Part shown: piece after piece, positions 13,366-18,061 of the stretch
How the letters are laid out: the number at the start of each line of letters is the position of its first letter
How positions within the stretch are numbered: the first letter of the stretch is position 1
NCBI RefSeq assembly: GCF_002741035.1
Contig: NZ_CP016808.1
Coordinates: 5,504,501 to 5,568,500, forward strand
Origin: Paenibacillus sp. BIHB 4019
Lineage (GTDB): Bacteria; Bacillota; Bacilli; Paenibacillales; Paenibacillaceae
Reading direction: 5' to 3'
DNA length: 64,000 nucleotides
Program-made: the position numbers and the translations under genes
Notes under the pieces: generated by a model
Databases searched by the model: none
What the model saw: only the letters and a program-made list of their open reading frames with translations
What the model was told of the DNA's origin: nothing

Positions 13366-14037
13366 ATTATTCGTAAGCAATTATATGTTTATCATGAGGG
13401 CATACCAGTAGAGGCAGTAATAAGACGATACACGGAGTTGGATTTTGAAGGGCTGATCGATGTGCAGCGCGAAAGCTTCCCGCCACCGTTTCCTGCGGAA
13501 TTATGGTGGAGCAAGGAGCAGCTTGCCGAGCACGTTTCCCGGTTTCCCGAAGGAGCGCTTTGCGCTGAAGTTGGTGGCAGGCTTATCGGCTCGATGACAG
13601 GCCTTATCGTTCATATGGACGATTACGGACATTCGCACAGCTGGGAAACGATTACGGATAACGGTTTTATTCGCAATCATAACCGCAGCGGCGATACGCT
13701 TTATGTGGTAGATATTTGTGTAATTCCAGAGTACCGAAAGTCGGGCATTGGAAAATGGCTAATGCAGACGATGTATGAGACGGTCGTGCATCTGCAGCTT
13801 GAAAGGCTGCTTGGCGGCGGGCGGATGCCCGGCTATTATCGCTATGCAGAAGAAATAACACCGGAAAGTTACGTTAGCGGGGTCGTAGCTGGAAAATACA
13901 GCGACCCTGTTCTTTCATTCCTGCTCCGCTGCGGCCGTACGCCGACAGGCATAGCGGCAAATTATTTGGAAGATGAGCAGTCCTGTGGCTATGCCGCACT
14001 GATGGAATGGCGCAATCCATTTTTTGCTGCCGATTAA
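13366..14037 (+). CDS. GNAT acetyltransferase with probable ATT start
   Basis: About 223-aa N-acetyltransferase of the type partnered with the nitrilase. Motifs include S-F-P-P-P-F-P near residue 35, L-Y-V-V-D-I-C-V-I-P-E-Y-R-K-S-G-I-G-K-W-L (acetyl-CoA site) and L-G-G-G-R-M-P-G-Y. The first canonical in-frame start is TTG 13438, which would remove the opening strand I-R-K-Q-L-Y-V-Y-H-E-G. Upstream in frame, ATT at 13366 sits 6 nt after GAAGGGA and is the only start that keeps that strand with a good ribosome site. ATG 13359 and GTG 13361 lie in other frames and soon stop. The non-standard start is inferred. Confidence 0.8.
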   Translation: MIRKQLYVYHEGIPVEAVIRRYTELDFEGLIDVQRESFPPPFPAELWWSKEQLAEHVSRFPEGALCAEVGGRLIGSMTGLIVHMDDYGHSHSWETITDNGFIRNHNRSGDTLYVVDICVIPEYRKSGIGKWLMQTMYETVVHLQLERLLGGGRMPGYYRYAEEITPESYVSGVVAGKYSDPVLSFLLRCGRTPTGIAANYLEDEQSCGYAALMEWRNPFFAAD

Positions 14038-14071
14038 ATAACAACCGATACATAAGGAGAGGGGATATTTT

Positions 14072-14746
14072 ATGCTGTACCATCGAATTGCCTCCATTGA
14101 TGACCCATATTTTGCTGAGCTGCATAAGCTGCTTCAAACGATTTTTCCACCGGAGGAAGTGCTGGCCTATGAGCTGTGGAGAGAACCGCTTGAGGATGCT
14201 GGCATCCATGTTTATGTTGCAGTAGAAGATGGCAAAGTAGTAGGCTCCACCGAATATCGTTATTATCCTGAGCTGCGCGTAGCGATGACTGACTTCACTA
14301 TTATCGGACAAGCGGGCAAGGGCATTGGCCGCTTCCTGCTGCGTGCTAGAGAAAAGGATTTGGCGCGTCTGGCTGAACAATCCGGTACAGAATCGATCGG
14401 CATGTTCGCGGAAATTTATAACCCTTATGAAACGGAGGAGCAGCATGCATTTGGCGGCGTAACGCCCATGAATCCATTTGTGCGCCGCGAAGTGTTGTCG
14501 CATATTGGGTATAACCGATTGGATTTCCCATATGTGCACCCTTCCTGGGATCATGAGGGTCAAGCGGTAACAGGACTTCAGCTCAGCTTCCTGCCTGCGG
14601 ATGAAAATATGGCATTTTTGCCGGCTTCGCTCATCGTAACTTTCCTTGAAGGTTATTATGAGGCGCTGCCTAACAAGCCGCAAGCTTGGCTGGATATGAT
14701 TAATCAGTTGCGACAGCAGGAGCAGGTCGCGCTTCTGCCGCTATAA
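14072..14746 (+). CDS. GNAT family N-acetyltransferase
   Basis: 224-aa acetyltransferase-like protein with a strong AAGGAGAGG site. The GNAT core is visible: V-A-V-E-D-G-K-V-V-G-S-T-E-Y, then F-T-I-I-G-Q-A-G-K-G-I-G-R-F-L-L (pyrophosphate-binding loop, about 70-85), followed by a longer alpha/beta part. Its stop overlaps the next start by one base, so it is in an operon with the PhnP-like hydrolase and probably with the preceding GNAT and nitrilase. The substrate is unknown. Confidence 0.85.
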   Translation: MLYHRIASIDDPYFAELHKLLQTIFPPEEVLAYELWREPLEDAGIHVYVAVEDGKVVGSTEYRYYPELRVAMTDFTIIGQAGKGIGRFLLRAREKDLARLAEQSGTESIGMFAEIYNPYETEEQHAFGGVTPMNPFVRREVLSHIGYNRLDFPYVHPSWDHEGQAVTGLQLSFLPADENMAFLPASLIVTFLEGYYEALPNKPQAWLDMINQLRQQEQVALLPL

Positions 14747-15543
14747 TGCGTATTACCTTTCGTGGAACAGGCGATTCGATGGGCGTTCCGCGTGTTTATT
14801 GCAGCTGCGCTGTATGTGAAGAGGCGAGAAGCACGGGCATTAATCGCCGTTTGCGTTCACTCGTACAGCTTGATGGATTGGGTGCAGAGGGTGCAGGTGG
14901 AGCTGATGATCCGGTTTGGATTGACTGTGGTCCTGATTGGGGAAGGCAAATGGAAGCGGCTGGACTCAGGTTCGTCAGACGAATTTTAATTACACATGCC
15001 CATTTTGACCATATTGGCGGTCTTGTGGAATGGGCAGACTGTTGCCGCTGGCTGAACGTCAAGGGCGAGGCTTTTGCAGCGGCTGAGGTGATTGGCGAAA
15101 TTAATGCGCGTTTTCCTTGGCTGCAGCGGCAAATCGATTTTCATCCCATAGACGGCGGTAATCTGCGAATGGGCAATTGGGATATAACGAGCTGGCGTAT
15201 CAATCATGGCAAAAATGGCTATGCGTATGCTTTTCGTTTTGATCATGCGGTCGAGAAACGATCCTGGGCTTATTGCTCAGACGCGATCGGGCTAACGGCC
15301 GAACAGCAGCAGCCGCTTTATGGTCTTAATCTGCTTGTGCTCGGAACAAGCTTTTATAAAGAGCCCTTCGCCTATGAAACCCGCTCTGTTTATGATGTAA
15401 CGGAAGCGCTTGAACTGCTTCAACTTTGGCAGCCGAATCAAACGGTATTTACCCATATGTCTCATGACATTGATCTGAATCGCGATTATGGGCTTCCAAC
15501 CTCTGTGCAATGTGCAAGGGCAGCACTAGAAGTGACGGTATAG
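14746..15543 (+). CDS. MBL-fold metallo-hydrolase, PhnP-like
   Basis: 265-aa metallo-beta-lactamase-fold enzyme. The opening R-I-T-F-R-G-T-G-D-S-M-G-V-P-R and a Cys cluster (C-S-C-A-V-C, about 18-23) match PhnP-type phosphodiesterases. The metal motif T-H-A-H-F-D-H-I-G is at about residues 83-91, with further ligands in C-S-D-A (about 178) and T-H-M-S-H-D near the end. The likely activity is hydrolysis of a cyclic or diester phosphate (family knowledge); the substrate cannot be read. It is the last gene before the 570-bp non-coding region. Confidence 0.87.
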   Translation: MRITFRGTGDSMGVPRVYCSCAVCEEARSTGINRRLRSLVQLDGLGAEGAGGADDPVWIDCGPDWGRQMEAAGLRFVRRILITHAHFDHIGGLVEWADCCRWLNVKGEAFAAAEVIGEINARFPWLQRQIDFHPIDGGNLRMGNWDITSWRINHGKNGYAYAFRFDHAVEKRSWAYCSDAIGLTAEQQQPLYGLNLLVLGTSFYKEPFAYETRSVYDVTEALELLQLWQPNQTVFTHMSHDIDLNRDYGLPTSVQCARAALEVTV

Positions 15544-15601
15544 CTAGGCCTAGACCAATGTATCAAATGCAGCATGAAGTTTCTTGCGAACGCCGATGGG
15601 G

Positions 15602-15631
15602 TTGACAAGGAACTTGTTTTTGAAGTAAATT
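15602..15631 (+). promoter_or_regulatory. Promoter of the structured leader RNA
   Basis: A perfect TTGACA (15602-15607), an 18-bp spacer and TAAATT (15626-15631). This predicts a transcription start near 15638, upstream of the leader peptide, hairpin and terminator. Confidence 0.6.
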
Positions 15632-15677
15632 GAAAATATATTTTGTTGGCTGGATGGTTCAGGAAGGGGTTTATTTT

Positions 15678-15704
15678 ATGTTGACAGGTGTTCTTAACTC
15701 ATAA
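15678..15704 (+). CDS. Eight-residue leader peptide
   Basis: The ORF reads M-L-T-G-V-L-N-S and stops at TAA. It has an excellent ribosome site, AGGAAGGGG (15661-15669), 8 nt before the ATG. Codons V-L-N-S are the left arm of the long hairpin at 15690-15822, so a ribosome paused here would open that helix. This is the arrangement seen in leader peptides of attenuated antibiotic-resistance genes. Function is inferred. Confidence 0.55.
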   Translation: MLTGVLNS

Positions 15705-15863
15705 ATTGGATAGATCAGATCGCGTTTGAAGGCGAATGGAGGCTTGCCGGCTGCTTTGTGCAGTTGAGGCAGGTTTCTATGAACGTATCTTCATCAGCGC
15801 TCTGATACCAAGAGTTAAGAACATGTGGACTCCGCCTGAATGCTATTCGGCAGCGGCCTGACC

Positions 15864-15889
15864 ACCGTGCTCTTGCAGCACGGTTTTTT
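15864..15889 (+). terminator. Terminator 1 of the leader region
   Basis: ACCGTGCT (15864-15871) pairs perfectly with AGCACGGT (15877-15884) around a 5-nt loop, followed by a run of six T. It would stop the leader transcript about 225 bp before the MutS2-like gene. Confidence 0.85.
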
Positions 15890-15904
15890 GCGTTATTCGC
15901 GCTA

Positions 15905-16016
15905 ATGACAACCGTATTTGTGTGGCGGTTACATTAGGCATGATTAATGCTCGGTTAGGTACAGCAGCCGTTTAAAGCAGGAATGGGACGCTCATGCGTT
16001 CTGTTCCTGTTTTTTT
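15905..16016 (+). terminator. Second hairpin and terminator 2 upstream of MutS2-like gene
   Basis: A hairpin of TAATG-x-AACCG with CGGTT-x-CATTA (about 15905-15946) is followed by a 14-bp stem (15978-15991 with 15996-16009, loop TCAT) and seven T. Two terminators in series before one gene suggest either a second small RNA or a double-gated leader. Confidence 0.75.
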
Positions 16017-16114
16017 GTTTTTATGCTTTGACAAGTGCGCCAAACGGTTAATTTCGAACCATTCACGCCAACGAAATGGGAAATACAACCGGTTTTAATG
16101 AGGAGCGATAGAAA

Positions 16115-18061
16115 ATGATGCACGAAGCTACGCTAAAGCGTTTGGAATATGACAAATTGAAGGAACAATTAATCGGCTATACGGTTTCTCCGGCAGGGAG
16201 AATATTAGCGGAACGCCATCTGCCCAGTATAGAAATGAGACAGATTCAGGCATGGCTGTCGGAGACAGAGGAAGCTTCCGCCTTGCTGGCAGCGGGGGCA
16301 AGCGTTCCCTTATCCGCAATGGAGGGTATTGATCCTTTTTTGGCACTGCTTGGCAAAGGACGCATTTATGTTGAGCAGGAGCTGGAGCAATTGCAGACAT
16401 GGCTCGCTTCTGTCTTGCAAATGCGCAGATATATGGCGAGCAAACGGGCGATAGCCCCGATCATTGCCAGCTATGCAGATTCCATGCATGATTGCCCGCA
16501 GCTGCGCGAAGAGCTGAGCCGTTGTATTCGCTACGGAAGCCTCACCGATCAGGCAAGCGCTTCGCTTGCGGAAATTAGGAGGCATCGCTACGCGGTCGAG
16601 GACAAAATCAGTCGTAAAATGGAAGCTTCGCTTTCCAAATACAAAGCAGCCTTGCAGGAGCCGATAGTGAGCAAGCGGAGCGGCCGGCTTGTTATCGCAG
16701 TAAAGCGCGAGCTGCGCAAGCAGGTACCGGGTACGGTGTGGGATGAATCGGCCAGTGGGCAAACCTTATTCGTAGAGCCGGTTGATGTAGCCGATTTGCA
16801 GGTCGAGCTGCGGCAGTGGGAGGCGGAGGAGGAACGCGAACGCACCGTTATTTTATCGGGTTTATCCGATCTGGCTGATGCGCACGAAGCTGAGCTAACA
16901 CTTAATTTAGAGGCGATGGCTTCCTTCGATTTCATTATGGCGCGCGGCAAGCTTTCGCGTTCCTACGATGGGAAACCGTTTCAAATAACCGGTGAACCTC
17001 TCATCTCTTTATCGCAGGCTCGTCATCCATTGCTTGGCCCGTCGGCAGTTCCACTGGATGTGGAGCTTGGTACGAGCTGGAGTCAGCTCATTATTACAGG
17101 GCCCAACACAGGCGGGAAAACAGCAACACTGAAAACAATCGGCCTGCTTGTACTGCTCGCTCAGTCAGGGCTGCTTGTTCCGGCAAAGGAAGGGAGCCGA
17201 TTCGGCATTTTCCGCACGATTATTGCTGATTTAGGGGATGGGCAAAGCTTGGAGCAATCTTTGAGCACCTTCTCCTCGCATATTCGGGTGCTCAGAGAAA
17301 TGCTGGAATCTGCCGAACCGCGCTCCTTGCTGCTGCTGGATGAGCTGGCGGCTGGCACCGATCCCGGAGAAGGCATAGCTCTATCTATTGCCGTGCTGGA
17401 GGAGCTTCACCAGAAGAGAGCTTTAACAGCGGCAACGACACATTTTAATGAGATTAAGCAATATGCTACCCGTACAAGGGGCTGCATGAACGCGCGGATG
17501 GCTTTTGATCCGCAGACGCTGCTTCCGCTGTATCAATTGATCATTGGGGAGGCAGGCGAAAGCCAAGCCTTCGCCATTGCCCGCCGTTACGGTTTGCCGG
17601 AACGGGTTATGCAGCGGGCGGAGCAGCTCGCAGTTAACCGCCAGCAGGTCATAATGTTAAACCCAGATGCTGCAGCTGTGCATATCGAAGATAGCAGCGA
17701 AGCTCATACCGAGGCTGATGTTAAAAATAGCAGCAAAAAACAAGAGGGCGCCGGCAAAAGCGCCTTGCAGCCCTTTCAAGCGGGCGATGCGGTATGGATT
17801 TATCCGCTCAAGCGCTTTGGAATCGTTTTTCGTCCGGCTGATGCCCGTGGAGAAGTCATTGTTCAGGTGCAGGGCCGCAAGCTGGCCTTTAACCGCAAGC
17901 GGCTCAAGCTGTCGATCAGCAGGGAGGAGCTGTATCCCGGGGAAGATTATGATATGAGCATCGTCTTCGATACTAAGGAGAACCGCAAGCTTCGCAAACA
18001 GCTGAGCCGCAAGCATGTGGAAGGGCTGGTCATCGAGATGGAGCCAGAGGCTTTTGAATAA
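16115..18061 (+). CDS. MutS2-like ATPase lacking the Smr domain
   Basis: 648-aa protein of the MutS2 family. It shows the N-terminal MutS2 region, a long helical clamp/lever region, then the ATPase: Walker A G329-P-N-T-G-G-K-T336, A-D-L-G-D-G-Q-S-L-E-Q-S-L-S-T-F-S, Walker B L-L-L-L-D-E-L-A-A-G-T-D-P, and T-T-H-F-N-E-I-K. After the ATPase there is a charged linker and a KOW-like piece, and the protein ends there. Canonical MutS2 is about 780 aa with a C-terminal Smr nuclease domain, absent here. B. subtilis MutS2 is known to act on collided ribosomes. The start is ATG 16115 or 16118 behind GAGGAG. A TTGACA at 16028 could give it its own weak promoter. Confidence 0.88.
   Translation: MMHEATLKRLEYDKLKEQLIGYTVSPAGRILAERHLPSIEMRQIQAWLSETEEASALLAAGASVPLSAMEGIDPFLALLGKGRIYVEQELEQLQTWLASVLQMRRYMASKRAIAPIIASYADSMHDCPQLREELSRCIRYGSLTDQASASLAEIRRHRYAVEDKISRKMEASLSKYKAALQEPIVSKRSGRLVIAVKRELRKQVPGTVWDESASGQTLFVEPVDVADLQVELRQWEAEEERERTVILSGLSDLADAHEAELTLNLEAMASFDFIMARGKLSRSYDGKPFQITGEPLISLSQARHPLLGPSAVPLDVELGTSWSQLIITGPNTGGKTATLKTIGLLVLLAQSGLLVPAKEGSRFGIFRTIIADLGDGQSLEQSLSTFSSHIRVLREMLESAEPRSLLLLDELAAGTDPGEGIALSIAVLEELHQKRALTAATTHFNEIKQYATRTRGCMNARMAFDPQTLLPLYQLIIGEAGESQAFAIARRYGLPERVMQRAEQLAVNRQQVIMLNPDAAAVHIEDSSEAHTEADVKNSSKKQEGAGKSALQPFQAGDAVWIYPLKRFGIVFRPADARGEVIVQVQGRKLAFNRKRLKLSISREELYPGEDYDMSIVFDTKENRKLRKQLSRKHVEGLVIEMEPEAFE

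Follow-up and report, generated by a model that had tools for sequence, protein, structure and literature searches.

What function is served by a promoter, an eight-codon open reading frame (ORF) and two consecutive transcription terminators in front of the gene for a MutS2-like ATPase? This question is raised by a locus of Paenibacillus sp. BIHB 4019 that lies in a 64,000-nucleotide stretch of contig NZ_CP016808.1 (positions 5,504,501 to 5,568,500; this whole stretch is hereafter called the window, and all positions are given in its numbering). The arrangement is probably a ribosome-mediated transcription attenuator that controls the MutS2-like ATPase as a translation-stress gene. The leader is conserved, both of its alternative pairings coevolve, it is linked to the gene behind it, and the product of that gene is a paralogue of ordinary MutS2. 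The leader and its gene consist of the following parts.

15602 to 15631, plus strand: sigma-A-type promoter TTGACA-18-TAAATT, from a sequence scan; a TTGACA-like element stands at the matching place in most of 48 aligned leaders.
15644 to 15855, plus strand: outer and Shine-Dalgarno (SD)-sequestering stems of the OFF fold, 15644-15663 with 15835-15855 and 15666-15671 with 15828-15833.
15664 to 15669, plus strand: SD-like AAGGGG serving the leader ORF; across 48 leaders each of its six positions is either invariant or conserved to at least 90%.
15678 to 15704, plus strand: leader ORF of eight codons, MLTGVLNS*, read directly as ATG-TTG-ACA-GGT-GTT-CTT-AAC-TCA-TAA.
15690 to 15700, plus strand: region 1, the last codons of the ORF and the 5' arm of the anti-antiterminator helix, GTTCTTAACTC.
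15812 to 15822, plus strand: 3' arm of the anti-antiterminator helix and start of region 2, the exact reverse complement of 15690-15700.
15817 to 15830, plus strand: region 2, left strand of the antiterminator (AAGA, CAUG, UGG, C), placed in the window by eye.
15860 to 15874, plus strand: region 3, right strand of the antiterminator, overlapping terminator 1 in its left arm and loop, placed in the window by eye.
15864 to 15889, plus strand: terminator 1, ACCGTGCT-CTTGC-AGCACGGT and then a T-run (stem 15864-15884 plus U-tail).
15974 to 16020, plus strand: terminator 2, from a sequence scan (stem about 15974-16013 plus U-tail).
16115 to 18061, plus strand: gene for a MutS2-like ATPase of 648 amino acids without an Smr domain (TIGR01069, MutS_V and tree).

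The promoter, the eight-codon ORF, the 11-bp helix joining 15690-15700 to 15812-15822, the two terminators and the MutS2-like gene were all present where the original prediction, made from the letters of the window, had placed them. The SD sequence stands directly upstream of the short ORF, whose coding sequence forms one arm of the anti-antiterminator, and two intrinsic terminators lie between the ORF and the gene. Taken alone, the promoter match is at chance level, five sites as good as TTGACA-18-TAAATT being found in 4 kb where 4.4 are expected. The folding energy of 15638-15895 was -108.5 kcal/mol, compared with -75.7 +/- 4.8 kcal/mol for 200 shuffles (z -6.82); this energy and the presence of the leader in 48 of 51 same-genus genomes establish that the leader with its ORF and helix is not a product of chance. 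In the window the long hairpin pairs 15685-15700 with 15812-15827, 15706-15709 with 15808-15811 and 15714-15723 with 15797-15806, and then continues inward; outward it is extended by 15666-15671 with 15828-15833 and by 15644-15663 with 15835-15855. The leader occurs once in the window's genome, where a search gave one full match and two at chance level. No Rfam covariance model matched the window at its gathering score, and 15590-16120 gave one chance-level match (E 9.7).

Two mutually exclusive structures are formed by the leader sequences, an anti-antiterminator and an antiterminator that overlaps the terminator, and both coevolve over 175 leaders. In an alignment of the 48 same-genus leaders (A1), 92.4% of cells were paired in the OFF structure, compared with at most 45.3% when it was slid by 1-3 columns; for the SD-side stem of the fold the value across the 48 leaders was also 92.4%. 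The outermost stem is predicted in the window by folding, and its 5' strand falls in variable alignment columns (columns 1-10). Changes on both sides of a pair were seen in 73 cells, compared with 27.3 after shuffling (reached by none of 500 shuffles), and the OFF structure exceeded the shuffles in four of five covariation measures. In the helix encoded by the ORF the usual compensations replaced U-A by C-G (18 leaders) or by A-U (eight leaders). The ON pairing joins region 2 (AAGAACAUG..GAUU in many species), which consists of the 3' arm of the leader helix and about 8 nucleotides (nt) more, to region 3 (AAUC..CGUGCUCUU), which comprises the left arm of terminator 1 and its loop; the window's version pairs 15817-15830 with 15860-15874. 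Across A1, 90.3% of its cells were paired, compared with at most 52.5% when slid, and its covariation score was reached by one of 500 shuffles. By eye, the antiterminator sequence varies by clade (ACGGAU/AUCCGU, GAUU/AAUC, CAUAGC/GCUAUG).

The original prediction of a leader-ORF attenuator in front of a MutS2-like ATPase therefore stands as regards a conserved attenuator, and its antiterminator has to be replaced: the strand that opposes the left arm of the terminator is region 2 and not the SD region. The alternative pairing it had put forward, 15655-15663 with 15857-15864, does exist in the sequence and is not conserved; as a candidate switch it was rejected, with only 163 of 375 cells paired and 40.2% for its best slid version. 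Beyond the window's four-genome clade, 131 of 343 cells were paired.

Since duplex energies calculated species by species gave no signal, coevolution was tested instead. In this swap test each leader's own partner segment was set against segments from the other leaders. It covered 175 of 204 parsed leaders, 29 being dropped for want of a cleanly found terminator or helix, after six of 210 leaders without a T-run had been set aside. Native partners fitted better than swapped ones for region 1 with region 2 (z -15.2, 93 distinct pairs) and for region 2 with region 3 (z -8.3, 133 distinct pairs), and in neither case did any of 20000 permutations reach the observed value. The controls gave z 0.2 (region 1 with region 3) and z -0.1 (the 14 nt after region 2 with region 3). 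With near-identical leaders clustered, z was -6.3 for region 1:2 (12 left) and -6.4 for region 2:3 (91 left); coarser clustering gave -5.0 (9) and -5.7 (77). The permutations ignore relatedness, and these z values are guides rather than probabilities. Conservation of the ORF and compensatory change in the helix it encodes, on which the original prediction had been made to depend, were thus seen both in covariation and in the swap tests.

These pairings suggest how the leader could work. In the normal state a ribosome would cross the tiny ORF fast and depart; region 1 (15690-15700) would then pair with region 2 (15812-15822), region 3 would be left free, terminator 1 would form, and transcription would stop before the gene. 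A ribosome lingering on the ORF or at its start would cover region 1, so that region 2 (15817-15830) could pair with region 3 (15860-15874), terminator 1 would be blocked, and the MutS2-like ATPase would be made. Judged from the sequence, the leader probably turns on the enzyme in cells whose ribosomes are blocked, by antibiotics for instance. We infer that the ribosome is the sensor, that inhibitors of initiation or early elongation are the trigger and that ribosome splitting is the output.

Ribosome occupancy was modelled on nascent RNA reaching as far as the terminator loop in 162 leaders, with switching defined as at least four region 2:3 pairs. Free RNA switched in 11 leaders, and RNA with the end of the ORF and the SD region masked switched in 132. 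With a ribosome at codon 1, 81 of 99 seven-codon and 50 of 57 eight-codon leaders switched, compared with 57 and 10 when it stood at the last codon; the modelled switch was easiest with the ribosome at codons 1-4. In this model, such early positions point to inhibitors of initiation or of the first peptide bonds, as for vmlR. A version with a shorter 5' end was more favourable (128 of the 162 leaders gained pairs, and the window's leader rose from 0.09 to 5.8); the version with the longer 5' end was relied on, and the outcome depends on the ribosome coverage that is assumed.

Several results weigh against the proposed mechanism. A single ribosome footprint at the end of the ORF switched only 77 of the 162 leaders. 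The window's own copy, which has a 19-bp outer stem, stayed unswitched with that footprint (0.001 pairs; 11.6 if the SD region was also masked), formed only 1.1 pairs when codon 1 was occupied by the ribosome, and was among 20 of 156 leaders that reached four pairs at no position. In equilibrium folding of complete leaders with region 1 masked, the probability of terminator 1 fell by more than 0.1 in only two of 48 leaders (those of genomes G007 and G017). The further pair types in the OFF structure did not exceed the shuffles (33 compared with 34.1; 450 of 500), and region 2:3 energies calculated species by species for the 48 same-genus leaders had no advantage over shuffled ones (z about -1.2 to 1.5). 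When confined to the genus, the region 2:3 swap test was null (z 0.2), the sequences being nearly fixed there. No coevolving antiterminator for terminator 2 was found when the upstream 70 nt, region 1 and region 2 were each set against its arms, all partner tests being at or worse than the level of swapped partners.

The leader ORF was present in all 48 same-genus leaders, with eight codons in 47 and seven in one (genome G005). Its motif, mostly placed directly before the stop codon or before one Ser, was Val-Leu-Asn in 155 of the 175 leaders; seven had VHN, six VFN, five VLS and one VLR, and one was unparsed. Outside the class the ORF looked looser by eye, for example MSASVQI or MIKGVLK. The same switch might answer another signal, with the 7-8-residue Val-Leu-Asn ORF acting as a metabolite-dependent arrest or termination sensor, for polyamines for example. 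We consider this unlikely: the constancy of the motif, which is also reached through different Leu codons, would suit such a sensor, but the modelled switch is easiest at codons 1-4, ahead of the reading of the motif. Selection on the helix alone could account for Val-Leu-Asn, whose codons form the helix. If so, the ORF might even be incidental, conserved merely through the helix, while a protein or another RNA acts on the two folds; the last codons of the ORF do sit inside the helix, and Leu has given way to His or Phe in parts of the genus (the VHN and VFN leaders). This account is very unlikely, as the SD sequence, start codon, length (mostly seven or eight codons) and stop codon are all kept, and the Leu codon occurs as CTT, CTG and CTC with compensating 3' arms. 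The Leu and Asn codons together appear as CTT AAC, CTG AAT, CTG AAC and CTC AAC, each with its own compensating 3' arm; in the CTG-AAT, CTG-AAC and CTC-AAC leaders, which are few, both arms are altered and the amino acids are kept, and it seems, therefore, that selection acts on the peptide as well as on the helix.

An automatic search picked up a second, strong terminator in 172 of the 175 leaders, typically about 67 nt past the first (in at least one case the match is terminator 1 again), and its arms often resemble GGCAGAGAATG and CATTCTCTGCC (L115, L121, L206 and others). In 42 of the 48 same-genus leaders the gene starts 29-45 nt past the T-run of terminator 2, the exceptions being G000, G002, G006, G026, G047 and G048; among further loci the gene lay at most 60 nt after terminator 2 in 101 of 123. 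A gap of 29-45 nt can hardly hold a separate promoter, and the gene therefore depends on read-through from the leader promoter. A possible promoter near 16028, from which the original prediction had allowed that the ATPase might be transcribed, has no TTGACA counterpart when the equivalent gap is read in the three nearest relatives, G002, G047 and G048. The spacing also bears on the idea that the unit yields an independent small RNA whose end is at terminator 1, and that a different promoter serves the gene. The unit does have a promoter and a terminator of its own, and one copy (L137) has no evident gene directly behind it; yet in 42 of the 48 leaders terminator 2 stands too close to the gene for a promoter to fit in between, the linkage to genes recurs, and a free small RNA would have no need of a coevolving antiterminator, so that the idea has almost no chance of being right.

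The distribution of the leader was followed in 51 same-genus, 394 family, 398 class and 398 phylum genomes. By BLAST, leader DNA was found in 47 of the 51 same-genus genomes (in G039 by a 32-base match only). The covariance search in related Paenibacillus genomes that the original prediction had proposed as a check was carried out with a model, R1, and recovered the leader in 48 of the 51, with none in G015, G016 and G039, whose best MutS2-type matches had less than 40% identity. The other 48 genomes all have the leader, with its ORF, upstream of a MutS2-like gene. In the family R1 matched 352 of 394 genomes and 17 of 19 genera (E 0.01); a stricter initial pattern, used before the covariance models, had found 22 of the 394, all of them same-genus (22 of 51) and none outside. 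A broader model, R2, was built from 54 leaders and applied at E 0.001; the E-values of these models are rough. It matched 79 of 398 genomes and 24 of 146 genera in the class sample, with 45 of the matched genomes lying outside the family, and in the phylum sample it matched 14 of 398 genomes, six of them outside the class; both samples include the window's own family, and both searches used stricter filters at which weak matches are lost. By eye, a terminator could be recognised in all six leaders outside the class, as could a short ORF and, downstream, a complementary arm. One weak class match, L338 (E 3.4e-4), shows no MutS2-like, ABC-F or ABC exporter gene and may be a chance match. A pattern scan of named genomes gave at least 80 loci, some of them chance pattern matches and from genomes that overlap with the other locus sets; among the matches listed were leaders with a MutS2-like gene in Brevibacillus, Fictibacillus terranigra and Bacillus suaedaesalsae, and a leader with a GNAT gene in a metagenome-assembled genome of Clostridiaceae. 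When the L195 leader was compared with plasmids there was one partial match, of the 44 bases that start the leader, in L363 (Paenibacillus plasmid pHD01, NZ_CP013204.1); compared with phages it had no match. The 44-base match lies in front of a gene on pHD01 that is annotated as MutS.

Outside the genus set there were 175 loci among the matches listed, and in 135 of them the first gene recognised allowed a classification: 102 MutS2-like, 28 BpsA-like and five APH-like, again among the matches listed and counted as loci, not as independent genomes. The other 40 were mostly incomplete loci or chance pattern matches. BpsA-like denotes the branched-polyamine synthase family (PF01861), whose BpsA is described mainly from thermophiles (PMC12979288). 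As the second commonest target of the leader, it is a point for a polyamine sensor; so are two Brevibacillus panacihumi records (L195, L235) in which one leader is followed on one strand by a MutS2-like and then a BpsA-like gene. Against such a sensor, the predominance of MutS2-like targets is joined by the occurrence of APH-like, GNAT, ABC-F and ABC-exporter genes. Beyond the class, the leaders of L355, L357 and L361 precede a gene matching the MutS2 model, and that of L359 a gene that is MutS2-like by eye. In the distant Bacillota, a leader precedes an ABC-F gene in L360:1440-3189 (426.3, against an NCBIfam cut-off of 380 for ribosomal-protection-like ABC-F) and an ABC exporter gene in L362:1440-3183. 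Several targets apart from the MutS2 paralogue have the look of translation-stress genes.

Further single loci were noted. BpsA-like genes stand behind the leader in Paenibacillus and Brevibacillus (L123, L126, L206, L218 and others), with a BpsA_C domain in L123. The leader copy of L331 precedes a gene that, by eye, begins like one for a GNAT acetyltransferase. At the place behind the L137 copy, which belongs to G034, same-genus G033 has an APH-like kinase. On the other side of the leader, the window contains two adjoining GNAT-family acetyltransferase genes (13438-14743) upstream of a gene for a metallo-beta-lactamase-fold hydrolase (14746-15543), which stops short of the leader promoter.

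The protein encoded in the window matched the MutS2 model TIGR01069 with 578 bits over residues 4-510 only. It has the MutS domain V ATPase (MutS_V at 325-506), with the motifs GPNTGGKT and DELAAGTD, which we take to be its Walker motifs, and its nearest solved structures were chains named MutS2 (8qpp and 7qv3). An Smr domain was found in none of 28 leader-linked MutS2-like proteins at E 0.1, and an MSSS SH3 (KOW) domain in eight of the 28 at E up to 0.1; the SH3 match in the window protein (556-596) is weak, with E 0.0078 and a score under the curated cut-off. Both domains are carried by the ordinary MutS2 of the same genome. Each of 18 genomes examined had one full-length ordinary-MutS2 match and one short match without the C-terminal part, and in a tree of 46 rows a single branch with 100/100 support separates the short form from ordinary MutS2 (of 58 proteins, 10 were lost to a motif filter and two removed as duplicates, and some genes still appear twice). 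The target of the leader is thus a clade of MutS2 paralogues without the Smr domain.

The MutS2 of Bacillus subtilis shares a homologous ATPase core with the window protein and differs in having Smr and in belonging to a separate clade; the available part of PMC10897456 mentions no leader. It splits stalled ribosomes, and its deletion leads to sensitivity to ribosome inhibitors; its KOW domain binds uS10, and without Smr it binds ribosomes poorly (PMC10897456). With erythromycin, Smr and KOW mutants were only very modestly sensitive and the ATPase mutant was sensitive (PMC10897456). By analogy, the protein made behind the leader is probably a factor for ribosome splitting or rescue that can be induced, and stands to MutS2 as HflXr stands to HflX.

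The closest known arrangements resemble this leader in their anatomy, judged from sequence; the RNA, the ORF motif and the main target differ. In Listeria, HflXr (lmo0762) is under the rli80 attenuator, is induced by lincomycin and protects against lincomycin and erythromycin (PMC6310831). That system likewise has a splitting-factor paralogue behind a leader in which a small ORF is combined with an anti-antiterminator, an antiterminator and a terminator, whereas its product belongs to the HflX family, its ORF has 14 amino acids with an RLR motif, and the consulted portion of the paper describes one terminator (PMC6310831). The RLR-type arrest motif of macrolide leader peptides, as given there, is absent from the window ORF, MLTGVLNS. 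In vmlR of B. subtilis an upstream ORF (uORF) lies within the anti-antiterminator and stalling on it releases the antiterminator, but that ORF has three codons, the target is an ABC-F protein, the RNA is another one, and an SD-sequestering hairpin serves translation attenuation; MDN and MDK variants of the MIN uORF were at least equal to it and MRK was weaker (PMC9226507). The ABC-F gene cplR also lies behind a very short uORF, and for it translational attenuation is stressed; in cplR and related ABC-F leaders the uORF consensuses are MR[I/M], MK[L/Q] and MAGN, with no Val-Leu-Asn among those in the part seen (PMC10201436). A literature search over titles and the openings of abstracts, with most subscription journals outside its coverage, gave no pointer to the leader or to a MutS2 paralogue without Smr. 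MutS2, leader peptide and attenuation occurred together only in PMC13159725, a Pseudomonas review, and 'mutS' was absent from the main text of two papers on attenuators and RNA discovery.

A wider proposal can be made, to which we give somewhat better than even chances: that one ancient leader family defines a Bacillota-wide ribosome-distress regulon, with a Smr-less MutS2 paralogue that splits drug-blocked ribosomes as its core, branched-polyamine synthases, an ABC-F protein, modifying enzymes and an exporter among its other members, and the Val-Leu-Asn ORF as the common sensor. Leader attenuators are known for single resistance genes; here, if the proposal is true, one RNA family would serve many Bacillota families and be linked chiefly to the paralogue of a ribosome-splitting ATPase. 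Under the proposal one would expect a MutS2-based counterpart of HflXr, inducible and acting in resistance or rescue, and branched polyamines may connect to ribosome stress. The genes that follow the leader would be a guide to further translation-stress genes, and in Paenibacillus and Brevibacillus the leaders themselves could be used as natural reporters of compounds that target the ribosome.

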